The notes beneath the pieces were generated by a model, which searched no databases, was not told the origin of the DNA, and was given only the letters and a program-made list of their open reading frames with translations. From contig JAVBXP010000031.1 of the NCBI GenBank assembly GCA_030824495.1, forward strand, positions 1 to 64,000: DNA of 64,000 nt, in the 5' to 3' direction. This stretch comes from a bacterium. Lineage in GTDB: Bacteria > Pseudomonadota > Alphaproteobacteria > Caulobacterales > Caulobacteraceae. Position numbers and translations under genes: made by a program. Below are positions 6,106-63,883 of the stretch, piece by piece. Each line of letters starts with the position of its first letter. Position 1 is the first letter of the stretch.

Positions 6106-6106
<1 letters not shown>
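4796..6106 (-). CDS. Sensor histidine kinase, CHASE3 plus HisKA_2/HATPase
   Basis: A 436-residue membrane-bound kinase. Domains in order: transmembrane helix about 23-46, a periplasmic helical CHASE3-like region about 48-190 (with DAESAQRAFILTGD), second transmembrane helix about 197-212, the HisKA_2 dimerisation segment LLDEVNHRVKNSLQQ with phospho-His H246, then HATPase_c with the N box LNELITNALKYG and the G box DDGDGLQ. It begins with GTG, whose G is also the last base of the typA TAG stop, so its translation is probably coupled to typA. Its partner is the downstream receiver. CHASE3 suggests an extracytoplasmic signal; which one is unknown. Confidence 0.92.
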
Positions 6107-7938
<1,832 letters not shown>

Positions 7939-8156
7939 TGATTTGGCTTTTGAACGCCCTATTTGGGGAAGCGCGCGCTTTTAGGCGACGAATGGCCAAT
8001 TAGCCAGCGCCTTCTCGCCGCGGCGCGGAACATTGCTATTTTCCGATGGTGCAGCGCAGCATTTTGAGCTCGCGGTTTGGCGGCCAAAATCGCACTGATT
8101 TGTAACGTGATTTTTCAGAGGTTGCGAAAAACGTGATCAGGAAGTCACAAAAGTGC
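7939..8156. other. Intergenic region upstream of typA and the small RNA
   Basis: About 218 non-coding bases between the typA start and the small RNA promoter. It is AT-richer than its surroundings, with runs such as TTTTTCAG and GCGAAAAACG, and must contain the typA promoter reading to the left. I could not pick a convincing -35/-10 pair for typA. A GGAAC at about 8027 resembles the -35 of the alphaproteobacterial EcfG sigma factor, but no matching CGTT follows at the right distance. Confidence 0.5.
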
Positions 8157-8185
8157 TTGGCGTTTTGTGCGTCGCACTCTATAAC
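8157..8185 (+). promoter_or_regulatory. Sigma-70-type promoter of the small RNA
   Basis: TTGGCG at 8157-8162, a 17-base spacer, then TATAAC at 8180-8185. This is one of the best housekeeping-type promoters in the window. Transcription would begin at about 8190-8193, immediately before the first hairpin of the proposed small RNA. Confidence 0.65.
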
Positions 8186-8191
8186 TCGAAT

Positions 8192-8274
8192 TGTGAGGCG
8201 TCGCTGACGCCTCTGCCCTTCCTGGGCGTTTCCTCCCTAATGAACTGCCGGGCCCTCGGGTCCGGCTTTTTTTT
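8192..8274 (+). ncRNA. Candidate trans-acting small RNA, about 83 nt
   Basis: Free-standing transcription unit between typA and rmuC: strong promoter at 8157-8185, then three consecutive hairpins and a T-run. Hairpin 1 is GAGGCGTC-GCT-GACGCCTC (8195-8213, perfect). Hairpin 2 is GCCC-TTCCT-GGGC (8215-8227). Hairpin 3 is the terminator at 8247-8266 with eight T (8267-8274). The linker at 8228-8246 is predicted unpaired and contains TTTCCTCCC, an anti-Shine-Dalgarno-like sequence, as found in several alphaproteobacterial regulators with CCUCC loops. No open reading frame fits. I do not recognise it as 4.5S, 6S, tmRNA or RNase P RNA. Function as a translation-blocking small RNA is inference. Confidence 0.6.
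8247..8274 (+). terminator. Rho-independent terminator of the small RNA
   Basis: An inverted repeat at 8247-8266 (arms GCCGGGCC and GGTCCGGC, one G-T pair, four-base loop) followed directly by eight T at 8267-8274. It lies upstream of rmuC on the same strand, so it ends a transcript starting after typA rather than serving any annotated protein gene. Confidence 0.75.
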
Positions 8275-8345
8275 GGCCTGCGCCTTTAGCGCATGTTCTT
8301 GGCCGCCGCTAGCTCGATCGCGCGACTCCGATTATAGAACGGAGC

Positions 8346-9617
8346 ATGAACTTAGACCTCTTCCTCGTCGCCCTCATCGCCGCCCTCGTGGCGGCGGCGC
8401 CCGCGATCGCCTGGGCCCTGATGGAGCGCAGCCGCGCCAACCGTGCTGAGGCAAGGGCTTGGGATCTCCAGGACGCCGCGGCGCGGGTGCGGGTCATGGA
8501 AGAGCAGAGCGCCAAGAACAGCGCCTTCCTGCAGGCCGAGGCCGCCGCCACCATCGCCGAGCAGGTGATGAAGCGCGCCGATGAGACGTTCCATAATAGA
8601 GAGCAACTGGCGCAGGCCCGCCTCGAGGCGCAGCTCAAACCCGTCGCCGACAGCCTGGCCAAGTTCCAGGAGCAGGTGGTCGCGGTTGAAAAAACGCGCG
8701 CCGAGGAAACCGGCGGCCTGAAGGAGCAGATCAATCAACTGCTGACCGCCTCGATCGCCACCCAGAGCGAAGCGCGGAAGCTGTCTGCGGCGCTACGTCG
8801 CGGGGCCGGCGTCCAGGGGCGCTGGGGTGAACAAACCCTGCGGAACGTGCTGGAGGCCGCCGGCCTTCATAATCGCTACGATTTCGACGAGCAGACCTCG
8901 ACTGACACCGAGGAAGGGCGCCGGCGTCCGGACGTCACCGTGCGCCTGCCGGGCGGGGCGGTGTTCGTCATCGACGCCAAGTGCTCCTTGAACGCCTTCC
9001 TCGACGCTCAGGACGCGGCGGACGATGCGACGCGTGAGGCTTGCTACGTCCGTCACGCCCAGAGCGTGCGCGCTCACATGATGGGGCTATCGGCCAAGTC
9101 CTACTGGGATCAGTTCAATCAAGGCTCGCCCGACTTCGTCGCCATGTTCATTCCGGGCGACAGCTTCCTGGCGGCGGCGCTGGAGCGTGCGCCAGAGCTG
9201 ATGACCGAGGCCATGGATCGCCGCGTGCTGGTCGTGACGCCGACCACCTTGTTCGCGCTCTGCAAGGCCGTGGTCTACGGCTGGCGCGTCGAAGAGCAGG
9301 CGGCCAACGCCCAGGAGATCTCCAAGCTGGGTCGTGAACTCTACAAGCGTCTGTCGGTGATGGGCGGCCACGCCGCTTCGGTCGGCAAGGCGTTGGAAGC
9401 CGCGGTGGGCCGCTACAACCAGTTCGTGGGCTCGCTGGAGACCCAGGTCATGACCCAGGCCCGCCGGTTCGAGGACCTGAAAGTCGATCATGAGGGCAAG
9501 GAGATCGCCGAGCTCGCACCGGTCGAAACCGGGATCAGGCCGCTGACCAAGCTCGCCGCCGACGATGGCGACGATGTCCAGGGGCGCCTCGCCGCCTTGA
9601 CGGCAAAGGGTCGCTGA
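8346..9617 (+). CDS. rmuC: DNA recombination protein RmuC
   Basis: A 423-residue RmuC family protein. It has an N-terminal membrane helix (residues about 4-25), a long coiled coil (about 28-150), then the PD-(D/E)XK-like nuclease-fold domain, seen as GRWGEQTLRNVLEAAGL, RRPDVTVRLPGG and FVIDAKCSLNAF around 160-220. RmuC limits recombination at inverted repeats and is thought to act on DNA near the membrane. It is followed 15 bases later by def, suggesting co-transcription. GGAG lies only one base before the ATG, so the ribosome binding site is poorly spaced, but no better start exists. Confidence 0.94.
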   Translation: MNLDLFLVALIAALVAAAPAIAWALMERSRANRAEARAWDLQDAAARVRVMEEQSAKNSAFLQAEAAATIAEQVMKRADETFHNREQLAQARLEAQLKPVADSLAKFQEQVVAVEKTRAEETGGLKEQINQLLTASIATQSEARKLSAALRRGAGVQGRWGEQTLRNVLEAAGLHNRYDFDEQTSTDTEEGRRRPDVTVRLPGGAVFVIDAKCSLNAFLDAQDAADDATREACYVRHAQSVRAHMMGLSAKSYWDQFNQGSPDFVAMFIPGDSFLAAALERAPELMTEAMDRRVLVVTPTTLFALCKAVVYGWRVEEQAANAQEISKLGRELYKRLSVMGGHAASVGKALEAAVGRYNQFVGSLETQVMTQARRFEDLKVDHEGKEIAELAPVETGIRPLTKLAADDGDDVQGRLAALTAKGR

Positions 9618-9632
9618 CCTACCTGCGTTCGT

Positions 9633-10142
9633 ATGGCTATACGTGAAATCCTTGTCGTTCCCGATCCCGTCCTGAAGCTGGTGTCGCAACCGGTCGAGAA
9701 GGTCGATGACGATCTGCGCGCGCTCATGGATGACATGCTTGAGACCATGTACGACGCCCCCGGCATTGGCCTGGCCGCGATCCAGATCGGCGTGCCCAAG
9801 CGCGTGATCGTCATGGACATCGCCGGTCCCGACGATCCCAAGGCGCCACGCTACTATGTGAACCCGGAAATCGTCTGGGCCTCCGAAGAGACCGCGCCCT
9901 ACGAAGAAGGCTGCCTCTCGATCCCGGATATCTATGACGAGGTCGAGCGTCCGGCTCGCGTGAAGCTGAAGTACCTCAACTATCAGGGCGAGGAAGTCGT
10001 TGAGGACGCCGAGGGCCTGTTCGCCGTCTGCATCCAGCACGAGATGGATCACCTCGAAGGCGTTCTCTTCATCGACCACCTGTCGCGCCTGAAGCGTGAA
10101 CGCGCCGTCGCCAAGGTGAAGAAGCAGTCCCGCGCCGCCTAG
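9633..10142 (+). CDS. def: Peptide deformylase
   Basis: A 169-residue metal enzyme removing the N-formyl group from new proteins. All three signature motifs are present: [11 protein letters not shown] (motif 1, near residue 45), EEGCLSIP with the metal-binding Cys (near 90), and QHEMDHLEG with both metal His and the catalytic Glu (near 135). Normal length. It acts after Fmt, whose gene lies 1.4 kb downstream, separated here by an acetyltransferase and a lipoprotein on the other strand. Confidence 0.97.
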
Positions 10143-53735: not shown

Positions 53736-55717
53736 TCGACCTGATTTTCCCCGACGGCTCCCAGCGCCAGTTCGAAGACGGCGCGACGGGCCGTGATGTC
53801 GCCGCCTCCATCGCCAAGTCGCTGGAGAAACGCGCCGTACTCATCAAACTGGATGGTCAGCTCTATGACCTCGACCGCGCGCTTCCGAGCGGCGGCCAGT
53901 TCGAAATCCTGACGCGCGACAGCCCCGAAGCGCTGGACACCATCCGCCACGACGCCAGCCACGTCATGGCTGAGGCGGTGCAGGAGTTGTTCCCGGGCAC
54001 CCAGGTCACGATCGGCCCGGCCATCGAGGACGGCTTCTATTACGACTTCGCCCGCGACACGCCCTTCAGCCTGGATGATCTGGCCAAGATCGAACAGCGC
54101 ATGAAGGAGATCGTCGACCGCGACGAGAAGATCGTGCGCGAGGTCTGGGACCGCGACGAGGCGATCGCCCACTTCAAGTCCATCGGCGAGGACTACAAGG
54201 CTGAGATCATCTCCGACCTGCCGGACGGCGAAACGATCACTGTTTATCGCCAGGGCCAGTGGAAAGACCTGTGCCTGGGGCCGCACCTGCCGTCCACGAA
54301 GTCGGTCGGCAAGGCGTTCAAGTTGATGAAGCTGGCGGGCGCATACTGGCGCGGCGACCATCGCAACGCCCAGCTTCAACGCATCTACGGCACGGCCTGG
54401 GCCAATGAAGCTGATCTCGAAGCGCACCTGATGCGGCTCGAAGAGGCCGAGAAGCGCGACCACCGCAAGATCGGCCGGGCGATGGATCTCTTCCATCTCC
54501 AGGAAGAGGCCAAGGGGATGATCTTCTGGCACCCCAAGGGCTGGACGCTCTATCGGACGGTCGAGGCCTATATGCGCCGCCGGCTGGAGATCGACGGCTA
54601 TGTCGAGGTCAAGGCGCCCCAGATCATGGACCGCGGTCTCTGGGAGAAGTCCGGCCACTGGGAGAAGTTCGGCGCGAACATGTTCACGTGCGAAACGACG
54701 GAAGGCGAAGAGCTGGCCGTCAAGCCGATGAACTGCCCCGGTCACGTGCAGATCTTCAATTTCGGCCAAAAATCCTACCGCGACCTGCCGCTCCGGATGG
54801 CTGAGTTCGGCGCATGCCACCGCTTCGAGCCTTCGGGCGCGCTGCACGGCATCATGCGTCTGCGCGCCTTCACGCAGGACGACGCGCACATCTTCTGCCG
54901 CGAGGACCAGATCGAGGAAGAGACGACGAAGTTCGTTCGCCTGCTCAACTCGGTCTATGCCGATTTTGGCCTGGAGCTGGACAGCGTGAAGCTGGCCCTG
55001 CGGCCCGACCTGCGCGCCGGCACGGACGAAACGTGGGACATCGCTGAAGACAAGCTGGACCGCGCCGCCCGCCAGGCGGTGAACATGGAAGTCGAGCGTC
55101 TGCCCGGCGAGGGCGCCTTCTACGGCCCCAAGCTCGAGTTCCACCTCTCCGACGCCATCGGCCGGACATGGCAGTGCGGCACGCTGCAGCTGGACTTCGT
55201 GATGCCCGAACGCCTTGACGCCGAGTACGTGGTCGAGGACGGCTCCAAGCAGCGGCCGGTCATGTTGCACCGCGCCATCTGCGGCTCGATGGAGCGTTTC
55301 ATCGGTGTAGTGATCGAAAATTACGCTGGCGCGTTCCCGCTTTGGCTGGCTCCGACGCAGGTCGTTGTCGCCACAATTACGTCAGATGCTGATGATTATG
55401 CCTTGAAGGTGGCTCAAGAACTGAGCGCCGCGGGGCTCCGGGTTGAAACGGATCTTCGGAACGAGAAAATCAACTACAAGATTCGTGAACACAGCCTCGC
55501 GAAGACCCCGGTTATAGCCGTGGTCGGTCGACGTGAGGCCGAGGAGGGCAAGGTGGCTTTGAGGCGTCTGGGGTCCGACGGCCAGGAGATCCTGACGGTT
55601 GTTGAAGCCGCCAAGAGACTTGCCTTAGAGGCGAGTCCGCCGGATGTTACACGCCAAGCTGTGCTTCGGGGTGCTTCGCCCCTGCAGGGCGAGGTCGGGG
55701 TAAGGGAGGCTGGATGA
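53732..55717 (+). CDS. thrS: Threonyl-tRNA synthetase
   Basis: A 661-residue class II aminoacyl-tRNA synthetase: TGS domain 1-60, editing domain about 65-225 ([15 protein letters not shown]), catalytic core about 245-535 with the zinc Cys/His in [10 protein letters not shown] and TQDDAHIFC, and anticodon-binding domain about 540-640. The last 20 or so residues ([18 protein letters not shown]) are beyond the family's usual end and look like a translated intergenic repeat holding a hairpin at 55676-55692. Starts inside yidD and overlaps the next gene by ATGA. Confidence 0.96.
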
Positions 55718-56652
55718 ACGGCATCGCCGCACCGATCGTCGCTTACGAACCCGCTCCGACGCAGGACTTCCTGAAGCTACGCCGCAAAGTCTCGGTGGTC
55801 ATGGTCGTGTACATGACCGGCGAGGCGCTCCAGCAGAGTGTCGAATGCGTGCTCGCCGACCCGTCGGTCGACGAGCTGGTGGTCGTGGACAACGGTTCGA
55901 CCCGGTTGGAGGCGGCGCGTCTGAAGCGGCTCGCCGACGGCGACCGGCGGGTGCGGGTGATCCAGGGGCAGGGCAATGTCGGGTTTGCGCGCGGCGCGAA
56001 CCTTGGCGCCCGCTCGGCGCGTGGCGAGGTGCTCGTCTTCCTCAATCCCGACGCGTTCCTACAAGCGGGCTGCATCGACGAACTGGCGCGCGCCATCGAG
56101 GGGCGCCCAGTTCCCAGCCTGGTCGGCGGCCGGGTTCTGAATTCCGACCGCACTGAGCAACGCGGCGCTCGGCGCGGCGATATCACCCCGGTTAGCGCCC
56201 TGGTCAGCCTGAGCCGCCTGGCCACCGCCATTCCCGCCCTGCGCCGCTATGAGGTGCATTGGGAGAGCGAGGCCGCGCCGGAAGACGTGATCGCCGTCCC
56301 GACCATTTCGGGCGCTTGCTTCTGCATGCGGCGCGAAGATTTCGACGCCGTCCAAGGCTTTGATGAAGGCTACTTCCTGCACGTCGAAGACGTCGATCTG
56401 TGCTGGCGCGTGCGCCAGGGCGGCGGGGAAGTGCTGTTCCAGCCCAAGGCCGAGGTGATCCACCTGGGGCATACCAGCCACGCCAGCCCGCTGCGCGTGG
56501 AGTTCCATAAGGGCGTCGGCCTGGCGCGCTACTTCCGCAAGCGCGCGGAAAACGGTCGCGAGGCCCTGCTGGCGTGGGCGATTTCGCCGCTCATCGTCTG
56601 CACGGCTATCGCCCGCCCGGTGATGTGGCGCATCCGCGGGCGCGCCGCCTAG
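55714..56652 (+). CDS. Family 2 glycosyltransferase (rhamnosyltransferase-like)
   Basis: A 312-residue GT2 enzyme of the WbbL type. N-terminal nucleotide-sugar fold: [44 protein letters not shown] and [12 protein letters not shown] (DxD equivalent NPDA), then [12 protein letters not shown] and [13 protein letters not shown]-like [16 protein letters not shown], which holds the catalytic acidic residues. A C-terminal hydrophobic stretch may associate with the membrane. Likely in cell-surface polysaccharide synthesis. Translationally coupled to thrS. Confidence 0.9.
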
Positions 56653-61917: not shown

Positions 61918-62529
61918 CTAGCGTTTGGCGAGCTTCGCGATCTGCGCCTGCATGTCTTCCATCTGCTTTTTCAAAGCGTTGAGGGTTTCGTCGCCGGCCG
62001 GGCCAGCGGTGGGCGCGGGATCGGCGGGTTTCTGCGGCGCGGCGCCGTCCTCGGTCCGCGAATAGGCGAAGGGGGAGAACATCTTCATCGCGCGGTCGAA
62101 CATCGCCAGGTTCTGACGGATCTGTTCTTCATAGCCGCTGCCGAGACCGCCACCGGTTCCCAGGGTGGTGAACTGCGTGCGCATCCGCTCCTGCTGCTCG
62201 GCGAAGGTGGCCAGCGACAGTTCCAGATAGCTCGGCAGGAACGCTTGCATCGAATTGCCATAGAAGCCGATCAATTGGCGCAGGAACTGGATCGGCAGCA
62301 GGTTTTGGCCCTCCCGGCTCTCTTCCTCGAAGATGATCTGGGTAAGGACGGTGCGCGTGATGTCCTCGTTCGTCTTGGCGTCATAGACGACGAAGTCGAC
62401 GCCCTGCTTCACCATGTCCGACAGGTGCTCGAGCGTGACGTAGGATGAAGAAGCGGTGTTGTAGAGTCGCCGGTTTGCATACTTTTTGATGACGACGCGT
62501 GCGTCGCCGGATCCCTGGGTCTCAACCAT
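61918..62529 (-). CDS. phaR: Polyhydroxyalkanoate synthesis repressor PhaR
   Basis: A 203-residue regulator binding DNA and PHB granules, repressing phasin and itself. The N-terminal domain is the PHB/PHA accumulation regulator DNA-binding domain (VIKKYANRRLYNTASSSYVT, LEHLSDMVKQGVDFVVYDAK, TNEDITRTVLTQII), followed by the second PHB_acc region (LPIQFLRQLIGFYGNSMQAF, LPSYLELSLATFAEQQERMR) and a coiled tail LNALKKQMEDMQAQIAKLAK. The start is ATG 62529 (MVETQGSGDARVV). Divergent from phaA, as in most PHB-forming alphaproteobacteria. Confidence 0.95.
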   Translation of the reverse strand: MVETQGSGDARVVIKKYANRRLYNTASSSYVTLEHLSDMVKQGVDFVVYDAKTNEDITRTVLTQIIFEEESREGQNLLPIQFLRQLIGFYGNSMQAFLPSYLELSLATFAEQQERMRTQFTTLGTGGGLGSGYEEQIRQNLAMFDRAMKMFSPFAYSRTEDGAAPQKPADPAPTAGPAGDETLNALKKQMEDMQAQIAKLAKR

Positions 62530-62707
62530 CCCACAATCCCTTATTTGGCACGCTCCCCGCGGCGCACCCCTAGTCTTGCACCGCAGTATCGCGAATGCGA
62601 GGGCGTTCGGAAAGCAGGGGTTCCGATCAGGCGAGTTGGTTGCACCCCCTTGCCCAAGCTCCAGGCTTTCCCGATAGATGAAAGCCTTAAAGTCCAGGAG
62701 CCCCGCC

Positions 62708-63883
62708 ATGAGCGACGTCGTCATCGTCTCCGCCGCCCGCACCCCGGTCGGATCGTTCAACGGGGCGCTTTCAAGCCTCCCCGCCCACGAGCTAGGCAAG
62801 ATCGCCATTCAGGCCGCTATCGAGCGTGCCGGGATCACCGCCGCCGACGTCGGCGAGGTGATCATGGGCCAGGTGCTGCAGGCCGGCGCCGGCCAGGGTC
62901 CGGCCCGCCAGGCGGCTGTCAACGCCGGCATCCCGGTCGAGAGCCCAGCCTGGAGCCTCAATCAGCTTTGTGGCTCGGGCCTGCGCGCAGTTGCGCTGGG
63001 CGCCCAGCAGATCGCCGATGGCTCGGCCTCAGTGGTGATCGCCGGCGGCCAGGAGAGCATGAGCCAGTCGCCCCACGCCCAGAACCTGCGCGGCGGCCAG
63101 AAGATGGGCGATCTCGCCCTGGTCGACACCATGATCAAGGACGGCCTGTGGGACGCCTTCCACGGCTACCACATGGGCCAGACCGCCGAGAACATCGCCA
63201 ACCGTTGGCAGATCACCCGCGAGGACCAGGACATCTTCGCCGTCGCCAGCCAGAACAAGGCCGAAGCCGCTCAGAAGGCCGGCAAGTTCGCCGGCGAGAT
63301 TGCGCCCGTGACCATCAAGGGCCGCAAGGGCGATACGATTGTTGATCAGGACGAATACATCCGCCACGGCGCGACGCTCGACAGTGTTTCGGGCCTGCGT
63401 CCGGCCTTCGCCAAGGAAGGCTCCGTCACCGCGGCCAACGCCTCCGGCCTCAATGACGGCGCCGCGGCTCTGGTGCTGATGAGCGCCGACGAGGCCGCCA
63501 AGCGTGGCCTCAAGCCCCTCGCCCGCATCGCCTCCTGGGCCAATGCCGGGGTGGATCCTGAGATCATGGGCACCGGCCCGATTCCGGCTAGCCGCAAGGC
63601 TTTGGAAAAGGCCGGCTGGAGCGTGGCCGACCTGGACCTCATTGAATCCAACGAAGCCTTCGCCGCCCAGTCGATCTGCGTGGTGCGCGATCTCGGTCTT
63701 GATCCGGCCAAGGTCAATGTGAACGGCGGGGCCATCGCCATCGGCCACCCGATCGGCGCGTCGGGCGCGCGCATCCTGACCACCCTTGTCCACGAAATGA
63801 AACGTTCGGGGGCTAAGAAGGGCCTGGCCACGCTTTGCGTGGGCGGCGGCATGGGCGTTGCCATGTGCGTCGAAGCAGTCTGA
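62708..63883 (+). CDS. phaA: Acetyl-CoA acetyltransferase (beta-ketothiolase)
   Basis: A 391-residue thiolase condensing two acetyl-CoA to acetoacetyl-CoA for PHB. The acylated Cys is in [14 protein letters not shown] near residue 88; [18 protein letters not shown] holds the catalytic His near 347, and [13 protein letters not shown] the second active Cys near 377. AGGAG precedes ATG 62708. A hairpin with a T-run lies between it and phaB. Divergent from phaR, whose product may bind the 178-base gap. Confidence 0.96.

Follow-up and report, generated by a model that had tools for sequence, protein, structure and literature searches.

The segment at positions 8157-8274 of the window, by which we mean the whole 64,000-nucleotide stretch of Caulobacteraceae DNA analysed here, is, judging by its family match, fold and comparison among relatives, a real regulatory small RNA gene, the Phenylobacterium member of the MmgR/SisA family (alpha-r8), and the PHB-sensing repressor PhaR probably controls it through a palindrome that lies in the promoter spacer. 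As a member of a known family the sRNA comes as no surprise; what is new is the conserved palindrome of PhaR type in its promoter. Our direct observations concern the family of the gene, its structure and position, the conservation of the palindrome and the presence of phaR; the whole reading, that of an alpha-r8 sRNA repressed by PhaR and pairing with target mRNAs by an anti-Shine-Dalgarno sequence, we regard as likely. The window is placed in Phenylobacterium by the relatives of its RmuC protein, the closest named record being a Phenylobacterium MAG with 98% RmuC identity.

All elements of the gene lie on the forward strand (+). A -35 element TTGGCG (8157-8162) and a -10 element TATAAC (8180-8185), both read from the sequence, are separated by a spacer of 17 bases, and between them is found the palindrome GTGCGTCGCAC (8167-8177), a probable PhaR/AniA operator. 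The alpha-r8 sRNA (8193-8274), delimited by the Rfam match, fold and covariation described below, would be an 82-nt RNA from its inferred start, the G of GUGAGGCG at 8193, a position obtained by laying the published SisA numbering (G33-C45, with C40 in the seed) on the aligned copies, which presumes that SisA resembles the copies found beside typA in what we took to be Caulobacter. Hairpin 1 (GAGGCGTC-GCT-GACGCCTC, 8195-8213), defined by fold and covariation, is followed by the weak hairpin 2 of the fold (8214-8228), directly 5' of the seed, by an open linker that is unpaired in the fold (8229-8246), and by a terminator stem-loop of 8 pairs (8247-8266) with a T8 run at 8267-8274. The linker begins with TTTCCTCCC (8229-8237), and the seed UUUCCUCCCU (8229-8238), of anti-Shine-Dalgarno type and likewise unpaired, is the same 10-mer that forms the core of SisA-D. 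The promoter boxes, three hairpins, open linker and T8 terminator listed in the first-pass annotation are all present by direct reading and in the fold; the CCUCC of its title, named there as a loop, sits in the linker and not in a hairpin loop.

The Rfam covariance model RF00519 (suhB/MmgR, alpha-r8) matches 8208-8281 (+) with 53.4 bits against a cut-off of 41, and it is the sole gathering-level Rfam match in the window. The model exceeds its cut-off once in the genome, at this typA-side copy, as well as in 55 of 60 relatives and in 145 of 149 family genomes. The weak hairpin before the core 10-mer (8214-8228) and the Rho-independent terminator after it (8247-8274), both criteria of alpha-r8 RNAs, are found here. 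The family motif was described by Corbino et al. (2005) as a probable noncoding RNA of antisense-type function, with four copies in C. crescentus (PMC1273637). The earlier label "unannotated" was fair for this gene and not for its family, which is already in Rfam. Eighteen further RF00519 matches in the genome, with at most 26.1 bits, were taken as chance, and among these weak matches (L002-L019) TTTCCTCCC is present in L012 (18.6 bits) only. SorX (RF02784, 26.7 bits) and anti-hemB (RF02837, 23.3 bits), which share with this sRNA a CCUCCCU stretch and a terminator, remained below their cut-offs of 46.6 and 49.5, and CcnA of C. crescentus, our first guess, was dropped on the RF00519 match. As a separate observation, a second alpha-r8 type occurs in Phenylobacterium-group genomes (L021, L023, L026, L034, L149), which is not typA-linked, has no hairpin 1 and bears a PhaR-type box directly 3' of the -35; one more locus (L020) contains two tandem alpha-r8 copies at 1361 and 1521, 160 bases apart.

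Two characterised relatives are useful for comparison. According to the description of Vogt et al. (2025), SisA-D of C. crescentus share UUUCCUCCCU after a weak hairpin (PMC12559287), and the sRNA of the window has the identical 10-mer in the same arrangement, with a terminator and, in the window's relatives, the FGase setting; it differs in that C. crescentus has four copies, whereas the window's genome has one over the cut-off, with rmuC in the place of the FGase gene. MmgR of S. meliloti belongs to the same Rfam family, is present as a single copy and, as reported, has a TTGTGCRNCGCA palindrome close to its start (PMC12542648, PMC7143759).

The RNA 8190-8274 folds at -40.5 kcal/mol, compared to a shuffle mean of -25.1 (z -5.45), and 0 of 200 shuffles were as good. 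Its terminator has the longest stem among 3 terminator-like sites in 7930-8360, for which the shuffle mean is 1.0. In an alignment of 48 distinct typA-linked copies standard pairs fill 99.5% of 1008 pair cells, while controls with slid partners gave 35-54%, and 11 of 21 pairs are changed on both sides, values reached by none of 500 shuffles. These changes are located in hairpin 1 (5 of 8 pairs, with 99.7% of cells paired across the 48 sequences), which lies mostly beyond the 77-position RF00519 model, and in the terminator (6 of 8 pairs); hairpin 2, with 100% of cells paired and almost no variation in these copies, provides no covariation evidence. RNAalifold gives the same structure, and the covariation across 48 copies supports the structure of the sRNA. 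The alignment comprises 48 of 53 distinct transcripts: L160 and L213, shortened by the T-run rule, were left out beforehand, as were L158, L193 and L194, which have a different 5' part, and the omission of these last three favours hairpin 1. Because TTTCCTCCC was required by the search rule, its nine bases are invariant partly through selection, and any copy whose seed differs would have escaped the search. Conservation of the stems and the linker had been set beforehand as the check by which the sRNA could be refuted, and it was found that hairpin 1 and the terminator covary and that hairpin 2 and the linker are near-invariant. The reading first proposed, a self-contained sRNA gene whose linker is of anti-Shine-Dalgarno type, is supported by the evidence.

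The conserved neighbour of the gene is typA (BipA; 6106-7938 on the reverse strand (-), by Pfam and synteny), which is placed head to head with it; rmuC (8346-9617 (+), by Pfam) stands outside the sRNA gene and is its neighbour in a subset of Phenylobacterium. Of 60 regions upstream of typA, taken from the 149 family genomes, 45 have the motif with its terminator (22 of the 25 same-genus regions and 23 of the 35 from other genera) and 15 lack it; among the three motif-less regions of the same genus, L170 and L176 keep typA beside the FGase gene and L169 stops at a contig end. For 14 of the 22 same-genus copies the far side is occupied, tail to tail, by an FGase gene with 56-87% identity to the FGase of contig C71; the remaining copies have rmuC there in 4 cases and neither gene within the stretch in 4. 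From the other direction, the motif is carried by 6 of 30 and 7 of 41 rmuC loci, two sets drawn partly from the same genomes. As the FGase gene stands beside the typA-linked sRNA more often than rmuC does, the common order, on this synteny, is typA-sRNA-FGase, and typA-sRNA-rmuC is a local rearrangement. The first-pass annotation gave the location as "between typA and rmuC"; rmuC adjoins the sRNA in some Phenylobacterium only. An FGase gene is a common but not universal companion of alpha-r8 RNAs; the window's genome has two FGase genes, each on a contig other than that of the sRNA, and neither adjoins an RF00519 match. In C. crescentus sisA adjoins the FGase gene, as Vogt et al. describe (PMC12559287), and by its position the sRNA of the window is the SisA ortholog; for the motif family as a whole, the account of Corbino et al. 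gives no specific neighbouring genes (PMC1273637). We also observe that in one Phenylobacterium group an rmuC-def pair (8346-10142) has replaced the FGase gene next to the sRNA and typA, and that elsewhere in the genus rmuC-def is located away from typA.

A generic sigma-70 scan reported 0 promoters in this segment (shuffle mean 0.1), a miss explained by TTGGCG having 4 of 6 consensus bases and by TATAAC ending in C, and with the scan silent the promoter call relies on direct reading of the boxes together with their conservation in relatives. This conservation is strongest at the T-T-G near -35, which is kept in typA-linked copies, and in the spacer, and is weaker, though moderate, at the -10. 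The spacer holds TTGTGCGTCGCAC at 8165-8177, an exact match to TTGTGCRNYGCAC. To describe its distribution we used 84 loci, from which 15 without motif and terminator and 6 duplicates were removed, leaving 63 with 61 distinct upstream sequences. The pattern YGCRNYGCR occurs in all 61 distinct typA-linked promoters within bases 85-15 before the seed (1.2 in shuffles) and in 60 of 61 within the narrower range of bases 85-38 (0.4 in shuffles), with 56 of them in three neighbouring positions; the only miss in the narrower range, L158, has its box nearer the seed. At loci that are not typA-linked the box was found in 8 of 20 over bases 90-15 and, in the narrower range, in 2 of 21 distinct upstream sequences.

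This palindrome has a counterpart in S. meliloti, where the mmgR promoter is reported to hold CAATTGTGCACCGCAGCATTA, 13 bases from the start, where PhaR (AniA) binds the palindrome efficiently by EMSA and altered palindromes abolish the binding, and where loss of phaR raises MmgR (PMC12542648). In the window the matching stretch of 21 bases stops 11 bases short of the inferred start, at nearly the distance seen in mmgR. The PhaR consensus given for B. diazoefficiens is TGCRNYGCASMA (PMC6201568). Loosening the pattern brings no enrichment: with one mismatch it occurs 30 times in the genome versus 28 for the reversed control, and is thus no commoner, and with two mismatches it occurs 14 times in the window versus 22.7 in shuffles, i.e. 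is rarer. What speaks for PhaR is therefore not pattern enrichment but the palindrome's conservation, its placement and its agreement with the tested mmgR site. Vogt et al. describe no motif common to the sequences upstream of sisA-D, as would be expected if the site were confined to sisA, and the main text of that paper makes no mention of PhaR control of the promoter (PMC12559287).

A phaR (aniA) gene, the probable source of the repressor, is encoded in the same window, 54 kb from the sRNA (61918-62808 (-); PF07879 with 1.3e-29 and PF05233 with 2.7e-17), and it is the sole PhaR gene of the genome. Its 296-aa open reading frame probably begins too far upstream, with the DNA-binding domain starting at residue 106; this longest frame overlaps that of a thiolase gene which lies beside phaR on the opposite strand (62678-63883 (+)). 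Taken together, the match of the palindrome to the PhaR-bound mmgR site and the phaR gene in the window make control by PhaR probable. PhaR is found in 149 of 149 family genomes, and hence its presence gives no contrast. The genome has three exact copies of the 13-base TTGTGCRNYGCAC pattern: in the sRNA promoter, at C47:146833 (L217, ~1501) and at C33:62345 (L216). The L217 site is centred ~20 bases before the panD start, and S. meliloti PhaR reportedly has a site at panC. Upstream of a phasin gene (PF09361; L219 ~1500-1631, C21:13241) a one-mismatch box and a second box, TGCACTGCA, flank CTTGAC, an arrangement that matches the two-box layout said to exist at S. meliloti phasins.

It would be logical to ask whether the same alpha-r8 sRNA could have a palindrome that serves as the site of another regulator, or as a feature of the promoter itself, with no control by PHB at all. 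We consider this unlikely, but of all the alternatives it is the one to be taken most seriously: the palindrome reading in Caulobacterales is drawn from sequence, the relaxed patterns are not enriched in the genome, SisA was nearly constitutive in the conditions that Vogt et al. describe (PMC12559287), and NtrC too is reported to control mmgR in S. meliloti (PMC7143759). Against it speak the match and a placement like that of the PhaR-bound mmgR site, the paired boxes at the phasin promoter of the same genome, and the retention of the pattern in 61 of 61 typA-linked promoters, which together argue for PhaR.

Two other explanations would deny that the segment is an independent sRNA. The element is on the rmuC strand, 72 bases upstream of the start of that gene, and might be seen as a cis-acting leader or attenuator of rmuC, but it ends in a strong terminator, rmuC is absent beside most typA-linked copies, and the family is known as sRNA from northern-blot evidence reported by Vogt et al. 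(PMC12559287), which makes such a role highly improbable. An encoded small protein, suggested by a 98-codon open frame (GTG at 8153) crossing the segment and by an ATG after the seed, has an even smaller, nearly negligible probability, as the sequence changes preserve base pairs and 5 of 48 copies have no ATG at that place.

With regard to its action, SisA is described as repressing mRNAs by pairing through the 10-mer, aided by Hfq, and as blocking ribosome binding, and the sponge CrfA counters SisA in C. crescentus (PMC12559287). The anti-Shine-Dalgarno mode of action proposed in the first-pass annotation is the published mechanism of SisA. The target prediction that had been advised was performed by scanning the linker against 58 start regions of the window (crude longest-ORF starts) together with those of phasin and panD, 60 in total, and yielded good contiguous seeds at some window genes, but no target is claimed, because an anti-Shine-Dalgarno seed fits many genes. 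By seed pairing the phasin start ranks 51 of 60, which gives no parallel to the link of MmgR with phasins, and panD ranks 22; in hppA, a SisA target, no clear seed site was seen by eye. Immediately 5' of the ATG of the gene at 55714-56652 (+), AAGGGAGGC is complementary to seven seed bases (-13.4 kcal/mol, rank 4); this gene, glycosyltransferase-like by eye, may be a target of the sRNA. Two places in the genome carry the full complement of the 10-mer: the strand opposite the sRNA, and C23:27207.

We propose the following sequence of events, suggested for Phenylobacterium by analogy with relatives in which pairing and PhaR action have been published. RNA polymerase would start near 8193 and stop at the T8 run ending at 8274; PhaR on the palindrome between -35 and -10 would hold this transcription down until PHB granules, for which PhaR is reported to leave DNA (PMC3079617), draw it off; the RNA would then, probably bound to Hfq, offer UUUCCUCCCU between its stems, pair with purine-rich ribosome-binding sites and lower the translation of its targets.

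On a larger scale, we are inclined to believe that throughout Caulobacteraceae, probably with Caulobacter included, the typA/FGase-linked SisA is repressed by PhaR via a palindrome common to rhizobial mmgR. In the open-licence literature searched we found no paper that names both SisA and PhaR, though the link may still be published, and Phenylobacterium was not found there in this connection. If this suggestion is true, PHB granules would release an anti-Shine-Dalgarno sRNA, and the feast-to-famine circuit of SisA and CrfA would be tied to carbon storage; with PhaR acting at the palindrome, carbon storage would feed directly into the very SisA-CrfA circuit that is studied in Caulobacter.
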